NCBI RefSeq assembly: GCF_023721415.1
Contig: NZ_JAMQVC010000001.1
Coordinates: forward strand, 744,001 to 808,000
Length of the DNA: 64,000 nt
Reading direction: 5' to 3'
DNA from: Galbibacter mesophilus
GTDB lineage: Bacteria; Bacteroidota; Bacteroidia; Flavobacteriales; Flavobacteriaceae
The notes beneath the pieces are model-generated. The model saw only the letters and a list, made by a program, of their open reading frames with translations, made no database searches and had not been told where the DNA came from. Position numbers and translations under genes: made by a program. Numbering within the stretch: the stretch's first letter is position 1; each line of letters begins with the position of its first letter. Of the stretch, positions 3,676 through 15,728 are shown in pieces.

Positions 3676-4566
3676 TTAGTTTTCTGAGTCGGCTTTAGAG
3701 TTCCAAGGATATAATTCCTGATTCACAAACTTCTTCGGAAATTTCTCATCCTCATCAAATCCTAATTCGATGTCCCTTCCGTCATGCGGAATGTAATTCG
3801 TTTTAAAAATATAATCCCACACGCTCAATGTAATTCCGAAATTGACTCCGTATTTGTTCGGCATTTTTTTGCTATGATGCCAAATATGCATTTTCGGATT
3901 ATTGAAGATATATTTTAATGGACCATAATCCCAGCCAATGTTGGCATGGTTTAAGTGCCCAATAGTAATGTTGAAAAAATGAACAATCGCCACTGATTCA
4001 ATTGTAAAACCACCTATGATGGCAATAGGAATGTACAATATCGATTTATACACGATGGGTTCCATCCAATGGTAACGAAAATGGGCGGCAAAAGCCATTT
4101 CCTTTACGGAATGATGTGTTTTATGAAAATTCCACAAAAAAGGAACTCTGTGCAACAAAATATGCGTACCCCATTGTATAAAATCAGCCACAAAAAAGAA
4201 TATTAACAATCCCCAATACCAAGGAAGTTTCGAGGCATTAAAAAGTTGAAAATCAGCTACCGACAAATTAAAAATGCCTAAAAAATCATTGAAAATTGCT
4301 TCCGCCGTATTGGAAAGTGCAATAAGCGCAATGAGATTCAGCAGAAAAAAATTAAAGAACAAATAGAACGTATCGAGCCAAAAATCCTTTCTGAAAATCT
4401 TTTGATTTTTCCGCCAAGGAAAAAGGATTTCCAATCCCCAAACCGTAAACGAAATAATAAGCAACCCATAAAAATAATTCTCCCAATAAAATCGGGTAAT
4501 CTCGTCCAGCAGGTAATTAAAATACCCCGAATACGATTCTTTTATGATGTTGAAATATTTGTTCAT
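3676..4566 (-). CDS. Sterol desaturase / fatty acid hydroxylase family membrane protein
   Basis: About 296 residues from the ATG at 4566; an in-frame ATG at 4587 would add seven. Several hydrophobic segments precede the histidine-box motifs of the di-iron membrane hydroxylase superfamily: HILLHRVPFLWNFHKTHH in the middle and HIWHHS near the C-terminal third. The family inserts oxygen or double bonds into sterols, fatty acids, carotenoids or other lipids. It lies downstream of arsM on the same strand, but a 176-bp gap with an inverted repeat separates them, so cotranscription is uncertain. The substrate is not predictable from sequence alone. Confidence 0.85.
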   Translation of the reverse strand: MNKYFNIIKESYSGYFNYLLDEITRFYWENYFYGLLIISFTVWGLEILFPWRKNQKIFRKDFWLDTFYLFFNFFLLNLIALIALSNTAEAIFNDFLGIFNLSVADFQLFNASKLPWYWGLLIFFFVADFIQWGTHILLHRVPFLWNFHKTHHSVKEMAFAAHFRYHWMEPIVYKSILYIPIAIIGGFTIESVAIVHFFNITIGHLNHANIGWDYGPLKYIFNNPKMHIWHHSKKMPNKYGVNFGITLSVWDYIFKTNYIPHDGRDIELGFDEDEKFPKKFVNQELYPWNSKADSEN

Positions 4567-4630
4567 ACACTTTGGTAAACAATTCAAATTAACCGATATA
4601 TTTTGCCAAAAATAAAACGGTTGTCGTGCA

Positions 4631-4678
4631 GAGCCTGTCGAAGCATTTTTGTGAACGTAAATACCCTTCGACAGGCTC
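4631..4678. repeat. Inverted repeat between arsM and the hydroxylase
   Basis: GAGCCTGTCGAAG (4631-4643) and CTTCGACAGGCTC (4666-4678) are perfect 13-bp inverted arms around a 22-nt loop. It lies 3' of arsM but has no T-tract on the minus strand, so it looks like a dispersed intergenic palindrome rather than a standard terminator. It may still end or stabilise the arsenosugar transcript. Confidence 0.65.
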
Positions 4679-4742: not shown

Positions 4743-5711
4743 TTAACAGCACCCGTCACCGTCGTAATGCCAAGTGGATTCCGAAATAAAAATATCTTCT
4801 CTATTTAAATTTTTGAGTGCGTTGGCTGTCTTGTCGCAAACTGCTAAAGGTTGGTTCTGCAATAAAACGTGCCCTTTTTTATCGTCAAAATAATCTTCAG
4901 TTCCATAATAAATGGCAGTTTTCCCGGTAAAAACACAAGGTCCGTCTTCGGGCATCGGATCTTTAATGGCCGCTACTTCAATAGATTCTATATAAATTAA
5001 CTCATCGGTATTATAATGGGTTGGACTTAGAATGCGGTATGGTTTTCGGGCTCTTATTTCAATAGTGCCAAATCCCGCATCGGTAAGCATTTTTACGTAC
5101 TCTTTTATGGGCAAACTTCCACTTAGGCACAACGCACGAAGCTGTTCATCATTTCGCAATTCATCATTCATGTGCTGCTCGCAAGTAGGGTCGCTCATTA
5201 CCAACCTACCGTGAGGTTTTAGTACGCGGTACATTTCAGCAATCGCTTTTTTAAGTTCTTCCGTTTTAAAAATATTGAACAGGCAATTTTGGGCGGCCAC
5301 GTCTATGCTTTCATCTTCCACAGGCAAGTGCAACGCATCCCCCTTTTTTAAGTTTACGAACTCACTTTTAAACCACGGATTTTGAAGTTCGGCCTCCTGA
5401 AAATTTTTACGGGAAGCCTCCAACATTTCATCTACCACATCTACGCCAATAACACCATCTTTTTGTCTGGAAAAGTAAGCGAACTGCAATAATTCCATTC
5501 CTCCGCCAACGCCTACGTACAATATTTTAGGATTGTTTGCTAAATCCCTTGGGTGTACCGTGCTCCCGCAGCCGTAGTTCATTTCTTGCATGATTTTAGG
5601 AATTTTCAATTCCGGCAATTCCCAAATAGGATTGGTGGTACAGCACAAGCCCACATCGGGTGTTAAGGCAGCTTCTTTGTAAACGTCTTTTGTGGTTTCT
5701 AAATAACTCAT
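4743..5711 (-). CDS. arsM: Arsenite S-adenosylmethionine methyltransferase (arsenosugar type)
   Basis: 322 residues. A class-I methyltransferase core contains the SAM loop VGVGGGME (about 66-73), the acidic VDVVDEM and the DALHLPVED strand. Cys143 in QNCLFN and Cys195 in ALCLSG sit where ArsM enzymes bind As(III). Further cysteines are Cys23, Cys24, Cys48 and Cys177, plus a terminal CC pair. ArsM enzymes methylate arsenite to mono- and dimethylated species. The start codon overlaps the stop of the upstream phosphorylase (ATGA, 5708-5711), showing translational coupling. As the last gene of an operon containing arsS, its product (dimethylarsenic) is probably the feedstock for ArsS rather than a volatile end product. 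Confidence 0.88.
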   Translation of the reverse strand: MSYLETTKDVYKEAALTPDVGLCCTTNPIWELPELKIPKIMQEMNYGCGSTVHPRDLANNPKILYVGVGGGMELLQFAYFSRQKDGVIGVDVVDEMLEASRKNFQEAELQNPWFKSEFVNLKKGDALHLPVEDESIDVAAQNCLFNIFKTEELKKAIAEMYRVLKPHGRLVMSDPTCEQHMNDELRNDEQLRALCLSGSLPIKEYVKMLTDAGFGTIEIRARKPYRILSPTHYNTDELIYIESIEVAAIKDPMPEDGPCVFTGKTAIYYGTEDYFDDKKGHVLLQNQPLAVCDKTANALKNLNREDIFISESTWHYDGDGCC

Positions 5712-6523
5712 AATTGTTTAATCAATTTCTTGAAAAGCGTAATCATTTTTGGTTCTGCTTCCCCCGCAATTTTAATGATTTCCTGAATATCAATCGGCTG
5801 AAGATTGTCTGGATCGCCCTCGTCGGTAATTACCGAAATTGCGGCAATCGGCAAACGTAAATGATTGGCAACAATAACTTCCGGCACAGTACTCATCCCA
5901 ACGGCGTCGGCTCCAATAATTTTTAGGTAGCGATATTCAGCCTTCGTCTCTAATTGAGGTCCGACTACGGAAGCGTAAACCCCTTTTTGAAGGGTAATGT
6001 TTTCTTCATCGGCAATTTTAGCTAAAGCCTTGCACATTTCAAGATCGTACGGCTCACTCATGTCCACAAACCGGTCGCCAAACTCACTTACTCCTTTAAA
6101 AGCCAAAGGCGAGCCTCCCTGTAAATTTATGTGATCTTCAATCATCATTAGATCGCCTTTCTTGAAATCCAAATTGACCGAACCCGCGGCATTGGATATC
6201 AATAATTTTTTAATTCCTAATTCATGCATGGCACGAATAGGATATGTAATATCGATAAAATCGTAGCCTTCATATAAGTGAAAGCGCCCTTGCATCACCA
6301 CCACTTTTTTGCCTTCAATTTCGCCGTAAATCAATTTCCCAGTGTGAAATTCTACGGTTGCCAAAGGGAAAAATGGAATATGGTTGTAATGTGCTACGAT
6401 TGGATTTTCAATTTCGTCCACTAATTTCCCCAGTCCGGTACCTAAAACAATCCCTACTTCTGGACTTTCAAAGCCTTTGCTTTTTAAATATGCGGCTGTT
6501 TCGTGTAATTGTTGTTTCGTCAT
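5708..6523 (-). CDS. Purine nucleoside phosphorylase of the arsenosugar operon
   Basis: 271 residues from the ATG at 6523; an in-frame ATG at 6553 exists but yields an atypical extension. The phosphate-binding motif VLGTGLGKL, FHTGKL, QGRFHLYEGY and SNAAGSVN are those of the trimeric PNP/MTAP (PNP class II) family. GVYASVVGPQLET and GMSTVPE are the purine-site motifs. The family splits purine nucleosides with phosphate to the base plus pentose-1-phosphate. Set between arsS-type genes and coupled to arsM, it is inferred to act on the arsenic-bearing adenosine made by ArsS, releasing adenine. A general purine salvage role remains possible. Confidence 0.88.
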   Translation of the reverse strand: MTKQQLHETAAYLKSKGFESPEVGIVLGTGLGKLVDEIENPIVAHYNHIPFFPLATVEFHTGKLIYGEIEGKKVVVMQGRFHLYEGYDFIDITYPIRAMHELGIKKLLISNAAGSVNLDFKKGDLMMIEDHINLQGGSPLAFKGVSEFGDRFVDMSEPYDLEMCKALAKIADEENITLQKGVYASVVGPQLETKAEYRYLKIIGADAVGMSTVPEVIVANHLRLPIAAISVITDEGDPDNLQPIDIQEIIKIAGEAEPKMITLFKKLIKQL

Positions 6524-6565
6524 AATTCTTACTTTTTTATCATTTTTAAACAACTGATCTTGGTA

Positions 6566-7177
6566 TTACTTGCTTAAAAATTTTTGAAATGCTGGATGCT
6601 CTTTTATATCGTCGTACACATCCACATCATTACGTTCTTCCAACAAAGCTACATCAAGCGGATGTAAAGATTGTAAAGTATCTCTTAAAACCGTATTTGT
6701 GCCCCATTTTTTTTGCTGAAAAACGGTTGGATGCAATTGTTTTAGCCCCAAAAGATAGTATCCGCCATCTTGCGCAGGGCCAACAACGGCATCGTTTATT
6801 TCCAACTTTTGAAAAGCATCATCAATATGTTGTGTTGTCAAATCGTATAAATCGCTGCCAATTATCACCGCCTTTTTATAACCCAAACGGAAGATTTCTT
6901 CAAAAGCATTTTTCATGCGTTCTCCAAGATTATTACCCTTCTGGATTTTTTTGCTGAATTTTCCATCGTTCCAAATATCATCTTCAGCAATTTCTTCAGA
7001 ATAAAAAACAAAGACATCTCCATTTATTTTCTTGGCTATTTGCTGGGTGTGTTTCAGTAAAAAAAGATAAATTCCCAATGCTTTTTCATTCCCCACCGTT
7101 TTTGCCAAACGGGTTTTTACCTTTCCCAACTCTGGATTACGGGTAAAAATCAACAATGCATTATTCTTTTCAACCAT
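6566..7177 (-). CDS. TIGR04282 family (DUF2064) arsenosugar-associated glycosyltransferase
   Basis: 203 residues with a compact GT-A/nucleotidyltransferase-like fold. The N-terminal LLIFTRNPELGKVKTRLAK is the nucleotide-binding loop. IIGSDLYDL provides the metal-binding Asp pair. VVGPAQDGGYYLLGL is a signature of DUF2064. The family is repeatedly found next to ArsS, hence its annotation as an arsenosugar biosynthesis glycosyltransferase, but the reaction is inferred from context. It lies 36 bp after arsS and 42 bp before the phosphorylase ATG, inside the operon. Confidence 0.85.
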   Translation of the reverse strand: MVEKNNALLIFTRNPELGKVKTRLAKTVGNEKALGIYLFLLKHTQQIAKKINGDVFVFYSEEIAEDDIWNDGKFSKKIQKGNNLGERMKNAFEEIFRLGYKKAVIIGSDLYDLTTQHIDDAFQKLEINDAVVGPAQDGGYYLLGLKQLHPTVFQQKKWGTNTVLRDTLQSLHPLDVALLEERNDVDVYDDIKEHPAFQKFLSK

Positions 7178-7213
7178 ATAAAGCTTTCGTGAATTTAAAA
7201 ATTGATTTGCACT

Positions 7214-8269
7214 CTAGGCAACCGTTCCCTGGCAACTACTTCCCGCTCCCGCCGTACAACCGTAGCAATGTTGAGAAATAACGATATCACGATTGTTTAA
7301 TATATCCTCGTTGTATTCGCTTATGTGTTTTACTTTACTTGCCACTTTTAGTTCCAGCATTTGGTTGAAATCACAATCATAGAGCCAACCATCCCAACTT
7401 ACTGAAATTGTATTGGTGCACATTACATTGCTCACTGCGGAAGGATTAAACGCTTCCACCAAATTATACATATAATCTTCGTAATTATCTGAAGCAATGA
7501 GATATTCCAAAAACCGTGAAATTGGCAGGTTGGTGATGGCGAAAAGATTGTGGAATTGAATACCAAAATCCTCCAACAATGCTTTTTTAAAGTCTTTTTC
7601 CATCGAAGCTTGATTGGTAGGCAAAAAAGCGCCCGCCGGATTGTACACCAAATCCAATTTTAAATCACTGTCCGGCATTCCGTACCCGACAGCGTTTAAT
7701 TTTTTTAAGGCTTCAATGGATTTATTAAAAACACCTTCGCCACGCTGTTTGTCGGTTTTCCCTCTTGTCCAATGCGGCATGGAAGAAACCACATGAACGT
7801 TGTGCTTTTTGAAAAACTCTGGCAAATCGTGATACTTTTTATTTGCCTCGATAATGGTTAAATTGCTACGTACAATAAAATCCTTAATCCCAACTTTGGA
7901 TGCTTCTTCCACAAACCATCTAAAATTGGGATTCATTTCCGGCGCGCCTCCCGTTAAATCCAACGTATGCGCACCCGTGGTTTTTATAACATCCAAACAC
8001 TGCTGCATGGTCTCTCTGGTCATGATTTCCTTACGGTCTGGCCCCGCATCCACATGGCAATGCGAGCATACCTGATTGCACATATAACCAACATTTATTT
8101 GCAGAATCTCTAACTTTTTTGGTTGTAAAGGAAACTGATTCGTTTCTGCTAATTTCTCCTTAAAAGTTGGCAATTCTCCATTCTGAAAAATCCCATTTGA
8201 AAGGATTTTTAGTTGGGTTTCAGTTTTAGAAAGTTCGTTTTCACGTTTATGCAGCGACTGTGTCGACAT
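7214..8269 (-). CDS. arsS: Radical SAM protein ArsS (arsenosugar biosynthesis)
   Basis: 351 residues. Cys64, Cys68 and Cys71 in VGYMCNQVCSHCH form the CxxxCxxC site for the SAM-binding 4Fe-4S cluster. DLTGGAPEMNP is the GGE-like SAM-binding motif. The C-terminal DUF3641-type part ends with a cysteine cluster, CYGCTAGAGSSCQG. Some ArsS members carry selenocysteine in this tail; here the residues are Cys and the stop is TAG. The family is proposed to transfer the 5'-deoxyadenosyl radical to dimethylarsenite, giving 5'-deoxy-5'-dimethylarsinoyl-adenosine. The gene follows the AhpD-like gene after 83 bp. Confidence 0.9.
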   Translation of the reverse strand: MSTQSLHKRENELSKTETQLKILSNGIFQNGELPTFKEKLAETNQFPLQPKKLEILQINVGYMCNQVCSHCHVDAGPDRKEIMTRETMQQCLDVIKTTGAHTLDLTGGAPEMNPNFRWFVEEASKVGIKDFIVRSNLTIIEANKKYHDLPEFFKKHNVHVVSSMPHWTRGKTDKQRGEGVFNKSIEALKKLNAVGYGMPDSDLKLDLVYNPAGAFLPTNQASMEKDFKKALLEDFGIQFHNLFAITNLPISRFLEYLIASDNYEDYMYNLVEAFNPSAVSNVMCTNTISVSWDGWLYDCDFNQMLELKVASKVKHISEYNEDILNNRDIVISQHCYGCTAGAGSSCQGTVA

Positions 8270-8352
8270 CTATTTTGTTCTTGAAATTAAATTTTTTGCA
8301 AAGTTTTTTCTGACTTTACAGGCATGAATTTGGATTACTTTTTTGGCAGACT

Positions 8353-8688
8353 TTACATCGATAATTTATCGTACTTCTTCATCATTTGAACGCCATGTAC
8401 CAATGTTGCCCCACTTTCTATCGCGGCTCCGGCATGTACGGCTTCCATCATTTCTTCTTTGGTAATCCCTCTTTGCAATCCGTCTTGGGTGTAGGCATCA
8501 ATACAATATGGGCATTTCACAACATGCGCAACTGCAAGCGCGATTAGCGATTTCTCCCTAGCAGATAATGCCCCTTCTTCGAAAACTTTTCCGTAGTAAT
8601 CAAAAAATTTAGCGCCCAGTTCTTCGCTCCATTCAGAAATTTTAGGGAATTTTTTTAAGTCTTTTGGGTCGTAATATGTGTTTTCCAT
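8353..8688 (-). CDS. Arsenosugar-associated AhpD-like (carboxymuconolactone decarboxylase fold) protein
   Basis: 111 residues, all-helical, with the redox motif CPYC at 59-62 followed by IDAYTQ, as in AhpD alkylhydroperoxidases. An acidic residue and downstream His in the usual proton relay (EGALSAREKSLIALAVAH) support a peroxidase-like or thiol-reductant role. This protein type recurs beside arsS and is named arsenosugar biosynthesis-associated peroxidase-like protein. It is the first gene of the operon, upstream of arsS. It may keep arsenic species or ArsM/ArsS thiols reduced; that is inference. Confidence 0.85.
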   Translation of the reverse strand: MENTYYDPKDLKKFPKISEWSEELGAKFFDYYGKVFEEGALSAREKSLIALAVAHVVKCPYCIDAYTQDGLQRGITKEEMMEAVHAGAAIESGATLVHGVQMMKKYDKLSM

Positions 8689-11988: not shown

Positions 11989-12972
11989 ATGCTAATAGAC
12001 AACCACAATAGAGTCATAAATTACTTGCGGTTGGCGGTAACAGACCGTTGCAACTTACGATGCAATTATTGCATGCCTGCGGAAGGGATTGATTTTGCAA
12101 AGCGGGACAATCTGTTTACCATGGAAGAGCTTTGCAGGCTTTCAACAATTATGGTGGCGCAGGGCATAGATAAAATACGGCTAACAGGTGGTGAGCCTTT
12201 TGTGCGCAAAGATTTAATGGTTCTATTTAGGCATTTGGCTTCATTAAAAGGATTAAAGGATATTTCGGTTACCACCAACGCTACTTTAATAGGGCCTTAT
12301 ATCGATGAGCTAAAATCACTCGGAATAAAAAATATAAATGTAAGTTTAGATGCTATCAATCGGGAGGCTTTTGAGCGGATTACCCGAAGGAACCAGTACG
12401 AAACGGTTTACGAAAACGTAATCAAGCTAATTTCTGAAGGATTTAACGTGCGTATAAATTGCATTGCCCTAGAAGGCCAAAATATCGAAGAAATCATTCC
12501 GCTGGTAGAACTCACTAAATACTATCCACTTTCTGTGCGGTTTTTGGAAGAAATGCCCTTTAACGGTGGTTCTAAAACATTCAATAAAATAAAATGGGAC
12601 TATAAAGCGATTTTCAATCATATTGAAACGCATTTTAATGATATCGAGAAGCTGACTTCAGAAAAAACCTCAACCTCCATCAATTATAAAATTAAAGGCC
12701 ATAAAGGTACATTCGGACTTATTCCTTCTTTTTCTAGAACTTTTTGCGGGACTTGCAACCGACTACGGATTTCTGCAACCGGCGATGTAATAACTTGTTT
12801 GTATGGAAAACCAAGAATGAATATCCGTGAAATCCTAAGAAGTGAAAATTCCGAAGAAAAAGTACAAGAGCACATTCTGGCCGCCATTGGCAATAGATCT
12901 AAAACCGGTTTTGAAGAGCAACAAAAATACGATGGGGTTTTTAATAATTCCATGACTTCCATTGGGGGATAA
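11989..12972 (+). CDS. moaA: GTP 3',8-cyclase MoaA
   Basis: 327 residues, a radical SAM enzyme that starts molybdopterin synthesis by rearranging GTP to 3',8-cyclo-GTP. The N-terminal cluster is Cys21-Cys25-Cys28 (CNLRCNYC). The C-terminal substrate-binding cluster is Cys253, Cys256 and Cys270 (CGTC followed by C after 13 residues). TGGEPFVRKDL is the SAM motif, and the protein ends in the family's Gly-Gly (SIGG). All residues needed for activity are visible. The gene is preceded by a dispersed repeat rather than by moaE. Confidence 0.96.
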   Translation: MLIDNHNRVINYLRLAVTDRCNLRCNYCMPAEGIDFAKRDNLFTMEELCRLSTIMVAQGIDKIRLTGGEPFVRKDLMVLFRHLASLKGLKDISVTTNATLIGPYIDELKSLGIKNINVSLDAINREAFERITRRNQYETVYENVIKLISEGFNVRINCIALEGQNIEEIIPLVELTKYYPLSVRFLEEMPFNGGSKTFNKIKWDYKAIFNHIETHFNDIEKLTSEKTSTSINYKIKGHKGTFGLIPSFSRTFCGTCNRLRISATGDVITCLYGKPRMNIREILRSENSEEKVQEHILAAIGNRSKTGFEEQQKYDGVFNNSMTSIGG

Positions 12973-12976
12973 GCCG

Positions 12977-13120
12977 AAGTTAGAAGTACGATTTTAGAGG
13001 TACCTAGTTTTAGGAGGTCACTTCGAGCACGGCGAGAAGTCGCATTACTCTGGGAAGGGAAGATTGAAAGATTCAATGGTTGAAAAATTGATGGATTTGG
13101 AGATTTGAAGATTAATAAGA
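12977..13120. repeat. Intergenic repeat, copy 2 (after moaA)
   Basis: Bases 12977-13003 repeat 11569-11595 with one substitution. A palindrome-like TCACTTCGAGCACGGCGAGA follows at about 13018-13037. A GATTGAAA-type low-complexity run then extends to about 13120. The copy sits directly behind the moaA stop, mirroring copy 1 behind moaD. Confidence 0.6.
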
Positions 13121-13129
13121 TTTATATAA

Positions 13130-13516
13130 TTGGAATTTAAAAGGATAGATTATAAGCAGTTAAACGCACGGCAAAAAGAAACTTATAATTTTCAAAAAGT
13201 TTCGTCGATTTTTGCTGAATATGGCTTTGCAACAATTAAATTAAACGATGATTGGAATGGTGCAGACTTTATTGCTCAACACATAGATGGAGATGTTTAT
13301 TTAAAAGTACAGCTTAAAGGAAGATTGACATTTGACAGAAAATACATAGGAAAAGACCTTTATATAGCTTTTCGGCACAATGAGAGTTGGTTCCTCTATC
13401 CACACGATTTATTATTAGATAAATTTCTTGAAGAGTTTTCTACCCAAATGGCAACCACCACATCTTGGGTTGAAAAAGGAAATTATACTTGGAGTTCTTT
13501 AAGTCCAAAGATATAA
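13130..13516 (+). CDS. Uncharacterised small protein, possible PD-(D/E)XK-like fold
   Basis: 128 residues. The frame opens with TTG directly after an in-frame TAA at 13127-13129, and there is no internal Met before residue 107, so either TTG is the start or the 5' end is lost. WNGADFIAQHIDG followed by the strand VYLKVQLKGR resembles the D-x(n)-(E/Q)xK core of restriction-endonuclease-like folds, with Gln in place of Glu. A later FRHNESWFLYPHD strand-loop fits that fold. I do not recognise a named family. It interrupts moaA and moaC and is bracketed by repeat sequence, suggesting an insertion. Confidence 0.6.
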   Translation: MEFKRIDYKQLNARQKETYNFQKVSSIFAEYGFATIKLNDDWNGADFIAQHIDGDVYLKVQLKGRLTFDRKYIGKDLYIAFRHNESWFLYPHDLLLDKFLEEFSTQMATTTSWVEKGNYTWSSLSPKI

Positions 13517-13607
13517 AGGATATTAGTGGAATATAAATTCAATTAGCCTTTAAAAAATCATCAAAATCTAACCACTCTGTACTAATTACTCAATACTAAG
13601 AAAACAA

Positions 13608-14078
13608 ATGAACAAACTATCACATATAAACGAGCACGGGGAAGCCACCATGGTAGACGTTTCTGATAAAAAGGTAAAGGCACGAACGGCAACGGCTTCA
13701 GGGGAAGTTATTTTTCCTGAAGATGTATTTGCTGAATTGTCGCAGAATCAATTTTCCAACAAAAAAGGAAGCATTATTCAAACGGCAGTTATTGCAGGCA
13801 TTCAAGCGGTAAAAAAAACAGCTGATCTCATTCCGCTTTGTCACCAATTAGCCCTTTCCAAAGTACATATCGATATTCAACCAAAAGGGAATTCGCTAAT
13901 TATAAAATCTACTGTAAAATGCACGGAAAGAACTGGCGTGGAAATGGAAGCACTAACTGGAGTTTCCGTGGCGGCACTCACCATTTACGATATGTGTAAA
14001 GCGCTTTCCCATGATATAAAAATCACCAATATTCAATTAGACCAAAAATCTGGAGGGAAAAGTGACTTCAACAGATAA
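13608..14078 (+). CDS. moaC: Cyclic pyranopterin monophosphate synthase MoaC
   Basis: 156 residues. MVDVSDK, TAVIAGIQAVKKTADLIPLCHQL, KCTERTGVEMEAL and DQKSGGKSDF are the conserved MoaC blocks, including the catalytic Lys and the LCH histidine. MoaC converts 3',8-cyclo-GTP from MoaA into cyclic pyranopterin monophosphate. The 3' end overlaps the next gene, mobA, by 17 nt, so the two are translationally linked. Confidence 0.95.
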   Translation: MNKLSHINEHGEATMVDVSDKKVKARTATASGEVIFPEDVFAELSQNQFSNKKGSIIQTAVIAGIQAVKKTADLIPLCHQLALSKVHIDIQPKGNSLIIKSTVKCTERTGVEMEALTGVSVAALTIYDMCKALSHDIKITNIQLDQKSGGKSDFNR

Positions 14079-14658
14079 ACTTTACGGCCTGATAATGGCT
14101 GGGGGGTATAGCAAGCGAATGCAACAGGACAAAGGCCTCATAAATTATCACGGAAAACCTCAACGTACGTACGTTTATGAATTATTGGAAGAAATTTGCG
14201 ATGATGTTTTTATGAGTATTCGTAAGAATCAACAAAGTCAGTTTGCCCCACACATTAAAACCATTGTGGATGAAAACAAATATGAAGGTCCGTTTAACGG
14301 TTTGCTAAGCGCTCACAATTTCGATAGTGAAGCAGCTTGGTTGGTATTGGCTTGTGATTTACCATTAATGGATGCTGTAAATCTTAAACGTCTGAAAGAG
14401 GCACGTGACAAGAGTAAAGTCGCAACCGTGTTTGCTGCTGAAAAAACCAATCTTCCTGAGCCGCTTTGTGCCATTTGGGAACCAAACGGACTTAGAGCGG
14501 CAATGCGTTTTATTGCCGAAGAAAATTCATTCTCCCCTGTTAAATTTTTGTTGAATAATGATGCTAAAATTGTGAATCCTACGCAAGATGCCGTACTTTT
14601 AAATGCCAATACGGAAGACGACCGTAAGAAGGCAATTGAAAAGCTTCGGAAAAAGTGA
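14062..14658 (+). CDS. mobA: Molybdenum cofactor guanylyltransferase MobA
   Basis: 198 residues. LIMAGGYSKRMQQDKGLINY is the GTP-binding signature of MobA, and ACDLPLMD supplies the metal-binding Asp. MobA attaches GMP to the molybdenum cofactor, giving the guanine dinucleotide form used by DMSO-reductase family enzymes. The start is GTG at 14062 within the moaC coding region, with GGAGGG at 14052-14057 as an unusually clear ribosome binding site for this phylum. Its stop overlaps the start of the next gene. Confidence 0.9.
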   Translation: MTSTDKLYGLIMAGGYSKRMQQDKGLINYHGKPQRTYVYELLEEICDDVFMSIRKNQQSQFAPHIKTIVDENKYEGPFNGLLSAHNFDSEAAWLVLACDLPLMDAVNLKRLKEARDKSKVATVFAAEKTNLPEPLCAIWEPNGLRAAMRFIAEENSFSPVKFLLNNDAKIVNPTQDAVLLNANTEDDRKKAIEKLRKK

Positions 14659-15728
14659 ACGACAAAAGATACATACGGCAAACCATTTTAAAAAGTTTTG
14701 GAAGAACGGCCCAAGAAAAATTGAAACATGCCAAGGTTTTGGTGGTTGGTGCTGGCGGACTCGGAGTTCCTGTTTTGCAATATTTAAATGCGATGGGCGT
14801 GGGAACATTGGGTATCGTGGAGAACGACACCGTAGATATTTCCAATTTACAACGCCAAGTAATGTATGCTGAAGGCGATGTGGGAAAATCCAAGTTGGAT
14901 GTGATTTCTGAAAAATTACAAGCTCAAAATTCGGAAACAGAATTACATAGACATCCTACTTTCTTGCATTCAGAAAATGCACTTGAAATCATAAAAAACT
15001 ATGATGTTGTGGTAGATGCTACCGATAATTTTCCTGCACGATATTTAATAAACGATGCTTGTGTTTTGCTTAAAAAGCCCTTTGTTTATGGTGCTTTGCA
15101 TGAATTCGAGGGCCAAGTGAGTGTTTTTAATTACAAAAATGGACCTACCTACAGGTGCCTATTTCCCAATATGCCCAATGCCGATGAAATGCCAAATTGT
15201 AACGAAAATGGGGTTTTGGGGGTTGTGCCCGGAATAATCGGAAACTTACAGGCTTTGGAAGCTGTAAAAATGATTACGGGCATCGGAAAACCATTAGCTG
15301 GAAAGCTTTTGATTTTTGACGGACTACAACAGCAATATCAACAAATTTCATTTGATTTACAGTCGGAAAATTTAGCCATTTCTGAACTACAATCAACCTA
15401 TGAAAATGTTTCCTGCGCTACCGATTTTACTATTTCCGTAGACGAATTTTCAACATACTTAAATAAAAAATCGCCCTTACAGATAATCGACGTTCGGACT
15501 CCTCAGGAATATGAAACTTTTCATTTTGAAAATTCAATAAACATTCCGTTGCAGGAACTTTCAGAAAGAATCAACGAAATAGATGCTGCCCAAAATGTTT
15601 ATTTGGTTTGTCAATCGGGTGTCCGCAGTAAAAAAGCCGTGGACATTCTTAAAGAAAAGATAAACTCTTCCATTTTTGAATTGGAGGGAGGAATTAACAA
15701 TTACAACCGCTATGCAATTAACCATTGA
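14655..15728 (+). CDS. moeB: MoeB-type adenylyltransferase with C-terminal rhodanese domain
   Basis: 357 residues. Residues 1 to about 240 form the ThiF/MoeB/E1-like domain, with the ATP loop GAGGLGVPVL, the RQ-type motif NLQRQVMY, Asp in VVDATDNF and the CLFP...CNENGVLG cysteine region. A rhodanese domain follows (about 258-357), with active Cys319 in CQSGVRS. The first domain adenylates the MoaD C-terminus and the second supplies sulfur, as in MoeZ or UBA4/MOCS3. The start is GTG in a 4-base GTGA overlap with mobA. It may also serve ThiS. Confidence 0.92.
   Translation: MNDKRYIRQTILKSFGRTAQEKLKHAKVLVVGAGGLGVPVLQYLNAMGVGTLGIVENDTVDISNLQRQVMYAEGDVGKSKLDVISEKLQAQNSETELHRHPTFLHSENALEIIKNYDVVVDATDNFPARYLINDACVLLKKPFVYGALHEFEGQVSVFNYKNGPTYRCLFPNMPNADEMPNCNENGVLGVVPGIIGNLQALEAVKMITGIGKPLAGKLLIFDGLQQQYQQISFDLQSENLAISELQSTYENVSCATDFTISVDEFSTYLNKKSPLQIIDVRTPQEYETFHFENSINIPLQELSERINEIDAAQNVYLVCQSGVRSKKAVDILKEKINSSIFELEGGINNYNRYAINH

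Follow-up and report, generated by a model that had tools for sequence, protein, structure and literature searches.

A purine nucleoside phosphorylase in a probable arsenosugar operon of Galbibacter mesophilus, retained by congeners without arsS and arsM

Why should a purine nucleoside phosphorylase (PNP) be encoded among genes for arsenosugar synthesis? The question is raised by a 64,000-nt stretch of the genome of Galbibacter mesophilus (Flavobacteriaceae, Bacteroidota), hereafter called the window, in which five open reading frames (ORFs) of the minus strand, between 8688 and 4743, encode in this order an AhpD-like protein, the radical S-adenosylmethionine (SAM) enzyme ArsS, a TIGR04282 protein, a PNP and the methyltransferase ArsM. 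The reading that we favour, and to which as a whole we would give about an even chance, is that of an arsenosugar operon in which the PNP removes adenine and the TIGR04282 protein carries out an activation step, the PNP being also shared with salvage. The genes concerned are the following.

8353..8688, minus strand: first gene, AhpD/CMD-like "arsenosugar biosynthesis-associated peroxidase-like protein" (TIGR04169, 194 bits, cut-off 120; CMD match)
7214..8269, minus strand: ArsS radical SAM enzyme with a DUF3641 C-terminal domain (TIGR04167, 446 bits, cut-off 300)
6566..7177, minus strand: TIGR04282/DUF2064 protein with a predicted CofC-like nucleotidyltransferase fold (213 bits, cut-off 134)
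5708..6523, minus strand: trimeric-type PNP (PNP-I; NF006054, 340 bits, cut-off 218)
4743..5711, minus strand: ArsM, arsenosugar-type arsenite methyltransferase (AsSugarArsM, NF038099, 579.5 bits, cut-off 400)
5708..5711, minus strand: 4-nt ATGA overlap of the PNP stop and the ArsM start

All five genes exceed their curated NCBIfam cut-offs and occur with the order, strand and ATGA overlap that a preliminary description of this DNA had given. Four of them carry NCBIfam names for arsenosugar genes, the PNP alone having a general name, and the CxxxCxxC motif of ArsS (Cys64/Cys68/Cys71) is invariant among 12 aligned ArsS sequences. The AhpD-like gene is separated from arsS by 83 nt, arsS from the TIGR04282 gene by 36 nt, and the latter from the likely ATG of the PNP gene by 42 nt. 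The PNP ORF as listed (281 aa) begins with a TTG at 6553; an alternative ATG at 6523 is the likelier start because it would give 271 aa, the usual length among relatives. Together with a sixth gene described below, the same order recurs at a common site in five of the seven genus genomes examined, that of the window among them. Since this order is kept in five genomes of the genus, and since PNP and arsS lie less than 15 kb apart in 120 of 148 genomes of the family, it is not due to chance, and the locus is, judging from its sequence, probably an arsenosugar operon.

The association was surveyed in 199 Flavobacteriaceae genomes (the family draw), in which ArsS exceeds its cut-off in 148 and PNP-I in 175. 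All 148 arsS-positive genomes have a PNP-I, versus 27 of the 51 arsS-negative ones, a co-occurrence that supports, within the Flavobacteriaceae, the earlier reading of an arsenosugar operon that includes a phosphorylase. Start-to-start distances between arsS and the PNP gene are below 3 kb in 95 of the 148 genomes and 3-15 kb in 25, the two genes being farther apart or on different contigs in 28. In these split genomes (17 + 11 neighbourhoods read), TIGR04282 adjoins the PNP in 28/28 and ArsM in 22/28, those without ArsM beside the PNP being G010, G050, G075, G080, G152 and G176 (G and L numbers are labels of the genomes and loci examined). Among 47 arsS-positive loci of the family that were counted, TIGR04282 lies upstream of the PNP in every case and ArsM occurs no more than 2.5 kb downstream in 34; beyond these 47, TIGR04282 also adjoins the PNP in another 13 arsS-positive genomes, 11 with the split and 2 with the adjacent arrangement. 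Rhodanese (NF045521), DUF547 and TIGR04283 genes are frequent neighbours of the cassette in the family. When named arsS loci were considered (the best 80 of at least 593, nearly all Flavobacteriaceae by title), the flank retrieved included a PNP in 49 cases, and in 38 of the 63 whose flanks were nearly full.

These counts bear on a first alternative, in which the PNP is a housekeeping enzyme for salvage of inosine, guanosine and adenosine that is parked in the operon, the arrangement reflecting a need common to these genes in certain conditions and adenine being removed, if at all, by another enzyme. We regard this explanation as possible and rather unlikely. It does not account for the constancy with which TIGR04282 stays next to the PNP, even away from arsS, nor for the fact that none of the 148 arsS-positive genomes is devoid of a PNP-I. 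On the other hand, the protein is the sole PNP-I of the window genome and its profile score is that of a PNP, as this alternative would have it.

Which kind of phosphorylase is encoded was addressed by alignment. The closest solved structure to the window PNP, in sequence and in fold, is 4lna, the PNP of Spirosoma linguale (51% identity). Aligned to the Clostridium perfringens PNP (8swu), the window protein has Asp244 in place of an Asn and Ile256 in place of a His (numbering of the 281-aa ORF), at positions that we take to be those of Asn243 and His257 in human PNP, His257 being presumably the residue that holds the 5'-OH of the nucleoside. If this mapping is right, the window PNP departs from the Asn and His pattern of inosine/guanosine-specific PNP-I, and the absence of the presumed 5'-OH-holding His argues against the housekeeping explanation. 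The model for inosine/guanosine-specific PNP-I (TIGR01700) is narrowly missed (292.2 against 293.35 bits). PDB titles among the structural matches include human PNP E201Q,N243D with 2-fluoroadenine and several H257 mutants. By alignment, an adenine nucleoside bearing a hydrophobic 5' substituent would fit the two sites, in keeping with the earlier suggestion that the enzyme acts on an adenosyl intermediate, and the sites recall methylthioadenosine (MTA) phosphorylase (MTAP). According to PMC5147791, the 5' pocket of MTAP is hydrophobic and without hydrogen-bond partners, and accepts 5'-substituted nucleosides. The window PNP is best read as a putative MTAP-like enzyme that would remove adenine from 5'-substituted adenosines, MTAP-like in action at most and not a member of that family.

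The distribution of these residues was examined in 126 PNPs. The Asp of the purine site is found in 125, the sole exception being one arsS-negative outsider. In the 94 rows of the family clade (78 rows from 77 arsS-positive genomes and 16 from arsS-negative ones), Asp is present in 94/94 and the His site is occupied by Ile, Val, Leu or Phe in 94/94. A second PNP type of the family, hereafter His-type, keeps the His in 12/12 rows, and of its 11 neighbourhoods that were drawn 10 have LpxK next to the PNP; outside the family, LpxK also adjoins some PNPs without the His. Outside the family, in a sample restricted to one PNP per genome though many genomes encode two (G245, from which two were obtained, is represented by one of them), the His is missing from 9/9 PNPs of arsS-positive genomes and from 8/11 of arsS-negative ones; because of the latter figure, absence of the His is rejected as a signature of arsS. 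Among arsS-negative genomes of at least 2.5 Mb and 95% completeness, picked by hand, 13 of 24 have a no-His PNP; we give this count no weight, since the arsS-positive side of the comparison was unfiltered and all 148 were taken as no-His although 77 were read. In the small genome G178 (L062, L057, L122), two arsS and two PNP genes were observed, each of two contigs carrying one arsS and one PNP gene, and neither PNP has the His.

The second protein in need of a function is TIGR04282, which had been described as a glycosyltransferase. It does satisfy the family model of that name, but the sugar-transferring role may have to be revised given its predicted CofC-like fold. The protein matches Pfam CofC (PF01983; 34.5 bits, gathering 22) and stays below the model of the CofC guanylyltransferase (TIGR03552; 36.9 against 105 bits). 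Profile searches gave a single convincing solved relative, 3cgx, a putative nucleotide-diphospho-sugar transferase (E 3.4e-47). This entry also came first when the predicted structure (pLDDT 96.1) was compared by Foldseek, and was followed at ranks 2-22 by nucleotidyltransferases, including MM2497, Rv2983, 3-phosphoglycerate guanylyltransferase, IspD, Rv0371c and sugar-1-phosphate and Kdo cytidylyltransferases; the entries are so titled except Rv2983 (FbiD) and Rv0371c, which we take to be nucleotidyltransferases. The first glycosyltransferase, mannosylglycerate synthase, occurs at rank 23, the folds of nucleotidyltransferases and glycosyltransferases being related. Judged by the predicted model, TIGR04282 resembles nucleotidyltransferases of the CofC type more than enzymes that move sugars. 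A nucleotidyltransferase, a phosphorylase making a sugar 1-phosphate and, in relatives, a nearby GT2 enzyme would make a sensible chain.

Put as chemistry, ArsM would convert arsenite to dimethylarsenic and ArsS would add a 5'-deoxyadenosyl group to it, both steps being known chemistry of their families. The PNP would then strip adenine by phosphorolysis, yielding 5-dimethylarsin(o)yl-5-deoxyribose 1-phosphate and adenine, and TIGR04282 would turn the arsenosugar 1-phosphate into a nucleotide-activated arsenosugar. Finally, a GT2 enzyme such as TIGR04283, which is near in many relatives and below cut-off in the window genome, would transfer the sugar to give a glycoside. The substrates and products of both the PNP and TIGR04282 are ones that we infer. 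The more specific proposal, that arsenosugars are made via a nucleotide-activated arsenosugar by a repurposed MTA-type phosphorylase, with coupling by TIGR04282 and transfer to glycerol or lipid by TIGR04283, is tentative and somewhat more apt to fail than to hold; we know of no arsenic-bearing nucleotide sugar, though no search for one was made. In the open-licence PMC literature, as far as its accessible text goes, no paper was found in which a PNP or a nucleotidyltransferase takes part in making arsenosugars, nor was a PNP seen described within arsenosugar gene clusters, the co-mentions being, by title, papers on arsenic in people or a review. For the removal of adenine, an adenosyl nucleosidase has been proposed, according to a review on the metabolites of algae (PMC10456119).

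The PNP had further been presented as dedicated to this route, and here the preliminary description is not supported: the enzyme has no other PNP-I beside it in its genome, it is intact in two congeners without arsS and arsM, and its residue type extends across the Bacteroidota. Of the seven genomes of the genus, five exceed the cut-offs for both arsS and arsM, and two (G030 and G387) exceed neither. In the five, the cassette is found at one site beside a sugar transporter (with an HAD gene between in 4/5), next to ClpP. At this site G387 has TIGR04282, the PNP and the hydroxylase (the sixth gene) as open frames, without the AhpD-like gene, ArsS and ArsM; no ArsS or ArsM remnants were found in its gaps (z -1.3 to 0.2), and a leader-like stretch remains (L297, 11722-11957). 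In G030, the PNP alone is an open frame, and upstream of it (L071, 4494-4937) is a broken AhpD-like remnant with stops and frame changes, of which the local DNA alignment scores 126, where shuffled sequences average 45 (z 11.6, 0/200 shuffles as high). Beside the G030 PNP, no remnants of FA_hydroxylase, ArsS, TIGR04282 or ArsM were found (z -0.8 to 1.5). The AhpD-like gene has demonstrably been lost from G030, and the remaining cassette genes presumably so. The PNP of G030 is under purifying selection (pN 0.177, pS 0.786), with values of 0.159 and 0.802 for the adjoining MoaA, dS being saturated. G030 and G387 form a decay series of the cassette inside one genus.

A tree of the 126 PNPs, built by a quick method and having many weak forks, gathers the 94 family rows in one clade (SH-aLRT 100). 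The phylogeny earlier named as a possible refutation gave a divided answer: the family clade does exist and comes mostly from arsS-positive genomes, but the 16 rows from arsS-negative genomes lie within it. These rows require 14 changes, only 3 of them imposed by branches with strong support, and shuffling the arsS label gives about the same scatter (mean 15.3). A clade of dedicated arsenosugar PNPs is ruled out by the 16 rows and by the congeners G030 and G387. Ten of the arsS-negative genomes have a PNP with no TIGR04282 found alongside, G015 among them with short flanks only. We read these data as suggesting that arsS and arsM were lost more than once while the PNP stayed; retention of the PNP where both are missing is also what the housekeeping explanation would predict.

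What would keep the PNP in place once the arsenic genes are gone may be sought in salvage. The PF01048 matches of the window genome are the PNP and one uridine-phosphorylase-like protein, and no MTA nucleosidase and no DeoD match were found in this genome. From this gene content, the PNP probably also salvages MTA and 5'-deoxyadenosine, and such a second role would explain its persistence when the arsenic genes go. In the family draw, MTA nucleosidase (TIGR01704) exceeds its cut-off in 14 of the 199 genomes. It is present in 9 of the 11 genomes having only the His-type PNP, in one with both types (G033), in four whose PNP is solely of the no-His type (G002, G090, G156 and G180; 4/92 of those read), and in 0/24 of those without PNP-I. 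The two other genomes having only the His-type PNP are G186, with 63 bits (cut-off 73.8), and G119, with no MTA nucleosidase match. Comparing 9/11 with 4/163, the latter figure assuming that 71 unread arsS-positive genomes are of the no-His type, gives a Fisher p of 1.2e-10, uncorrected for ancestry. Weaker matches to MTA nucleosidase occur in ca. 100 genomes and are mostly ca. 235 aa long, the one identified being DeoD (L188, in the arsS-negative G021). DeoD-like proteins, assigned by size and weak score only, would occur in 86/148 arsS-positive genomes, 7/16 arsS-negative no-His genomes, 0/11 His-type genomes and 8/24 PNP-less genomes. Where present in arsS-positive genomes, they should cover general salvage, which speaks against a housekeeping role of the PNP beside arsS.

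The same data bring in a second alternative, in which the PNP clears 5'-deoxyadenosine or MTA arising from ArsS and other radical SAM enzymes, thereby relieving product inhibition, and does not process arsenosugars. The window genome has no MTA nucleosidase match, this nucleosidase goes with the other, His-type PNP in the family, and another radical SAM enzyme, MoaA (named by eye), is encoded at 11989-12972, ca. 3 kb from the cassette. As stated in PMC8102628, 5'-deoxyadenosine inhibits radical SAM enzymes and must be disposed of. However, ArsS attaches the adenosyl group to arsenic, as is known for the family and stated in PMC12159101, so that in productive turnover the group is bonded and not released. 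Clearance also leaves the constant TIGR04282 partner unexplained, since a nucleotidyltransferase-like enzyme would need a phosphate ester. We consider this alternative unlikely.

A third alternative concerns the arsenic itself: arsenolysis of nucleosides by the PNP would give ribose 1-arsenate, from which thiols would produce arsenite for ArsM. We hold it to be very improbable. Human PNP reduces arsenate in vitro, but whether this happens in vivo is not known, both according to PMC12608789; moreover, such a reaction would require neither a particular 5' site nor a nucleotidyltransferase partner.

Returning to the favoured reading, that of adenine removal by the PNP within an arsenosugar operon, the survey was extended to 198 genomes of the phylum, some of them Flavobacteriaceae, with ArsS over cut-off in 80 and PNP-I in 190. 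None of the 8 genomes without PNP-I has arsS over cut-off (two tables inspected). Several observations weigh against this reading. No PNP lies within ca. 7 kb of arsS in any of 20 loci read from other families (0/20), which also suits the housekeeping explanation, as does the phylum-wide spread of this PNP type; the linkage of the PNP therefore looks like a trait of the Flavobacteriaceae and not a general one of ArsS systems. In these 20 loci a TIGR04282-like gene was found in 8 and a TIGR04283-like gene in 7, and one of them (L149) combines ArsS, TIGR04282, ArsM and TIGR04283 without any PNP. Because it is phylum-wide, the no-His residue type is no mark of arsenosugar use, and because Asp is common to His-type enzymes, only the 5' site tells the PNP types apart. 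The window PNP falls short of the MTAP model (TIGR01694; 102.6 against 274.85 bits), its 340 bits being scored on a PNP model, and the 50 structural matches listed are all PNP entries, none with an MTAP title. Six arsS-negative genomes (G001, G018, G037, G104, G129 and G184) retain TIGR04282, PNP and TIGR04283 in the order rhodanese-TIGR04282-PNP-TIGR04283, with no ArsM at the locus, so that this trio may serve another use, without arsenic. At the edge of L063, in G001, a partial AhpD-like match (41%) was observed. TIGR04283 itself has no match over cut-off in the window genome (46.4 against 182 bits). Some genomes have neither PNP-I nor MTA nucleosidase nor DeoD, among them G127, whose single PF01048 protein is of the uridine-phosphorylase-like size class; MTA salvage by the PF01048 superfamily is therefore not needed everywhere. 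Finally, the Fisher tests ignore shared ancestry.

Downstream of ArsM, two further features complete the locus.

3676..4587, minus strand: homologue of fatty-acid hydroxylase (FA_hydroxylase, PF04116, family match), sixth cassette gene, with an in-frame ATG at 4566
4632..4677, no strand: inverted repeat, read by eye, with perfect 12-nt arms AGCCTGTCGAAG / CTTCGACAGGCT, between ArsM and the hydroxylase gene

The FA_hydroxylase gene is at the same site in 6/7 genomes of the genus, namely all five arsS-positive ones (window included) and one of the two arsS-negative ones. When 80 neighbourhoods of the family were clustered (L063-L142, window included), its cluster appeared in 16, and homologues were found in the flanks of 18 of the best 80 named arsS loci. 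This gene, which the preliminary description had not listed, belongs to the cassette as its sixth member and recurs with it; its nature hints at a lipid in the final product of the pathway, no more. A 17-mer holding one arm of the repeat has a single match in the window, at 4632-4677, and the repeat may separate transcripts, or be a terminator or a repeat element.

Other neighbours were noted. Molybdenum-cofactor-like genes (MoaA and MoaC-, MobA- and MoeB-like, named by eye) occur beside the cassette site at 11989-15728 of the window, and a MoaA homologue adjoins this site in 7/7 genomes of the genus. In other loci, genes for SusD (joined by SusC within the family), a symporter of the SSF type and a metallophosphoesterase separate arsS from the TIGR04282-PNP-ArsM block or flank them; this module was seen at L135, L137, L139 and L140, in 14 of the 80 named loci, and at L147 and L148 in other families. 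Its link to arsenosugar genes in several families leads us to guess at uptake of phosphate esters or of arsenosugars.

Overall, the locus provides two named candidate enzymes for the steps after ArsS, between the adenosyl-arsenic nucleoside and the finished arsenosugar, and a single genus supplies natural variants from which parts of the cassette are missing. The presence of a PNP next to arsS is, by itself, no pathway-specific marker, and the database name "glycosyltransferase" of TIGR04282 may describe the wrong reaction.

Comparison with known systems can be made at three levels. The trimeric PNPs of known structure share a common fold with the window PNP and differ in their residues: 4lna has Asp and Leu where the window protein has Asp and Ile, the Bacteroides fragilis PNP (8swt, 49% identity) has the Asp but, unlike the window protein, keeps the His, and the Clostridium perfringens enzyme (8swu, 43% identity) has Asn and His. 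For TIGR04282, the predicted fold is like that of CofC-like nucleotidyltransferases (MM2497, 2i5e; Rv2983, 6bwg; 3-phosphoglycerate guanylyltransferase, 7p97), with only 15-18% identity. At the level of pathways, FlB phosphorolyses 5'-fluoro-5'-deoxyadenosine in a fluorometabolite pathway (PMC8694150); the likeness would be one of function and would lie in phosphorolysis of a 5'-heteroatom-5'-deoxyadenosine within a biosynthetic route, whereas the window-type PNP is also retained without its pathway. The closest counterpart of the operon is the ArsM-ArsS system. Its part in arsenosugar biosynthesis was reportedly described by Cheng et al. in 2021. The ArsM and ArsS families are the same by curated models, and to these the window operon adds a PNP, a putative CofC-like nucleotidyltransferase, an AhpD-like protein and a fatty-acid-hydroxylase homologue.

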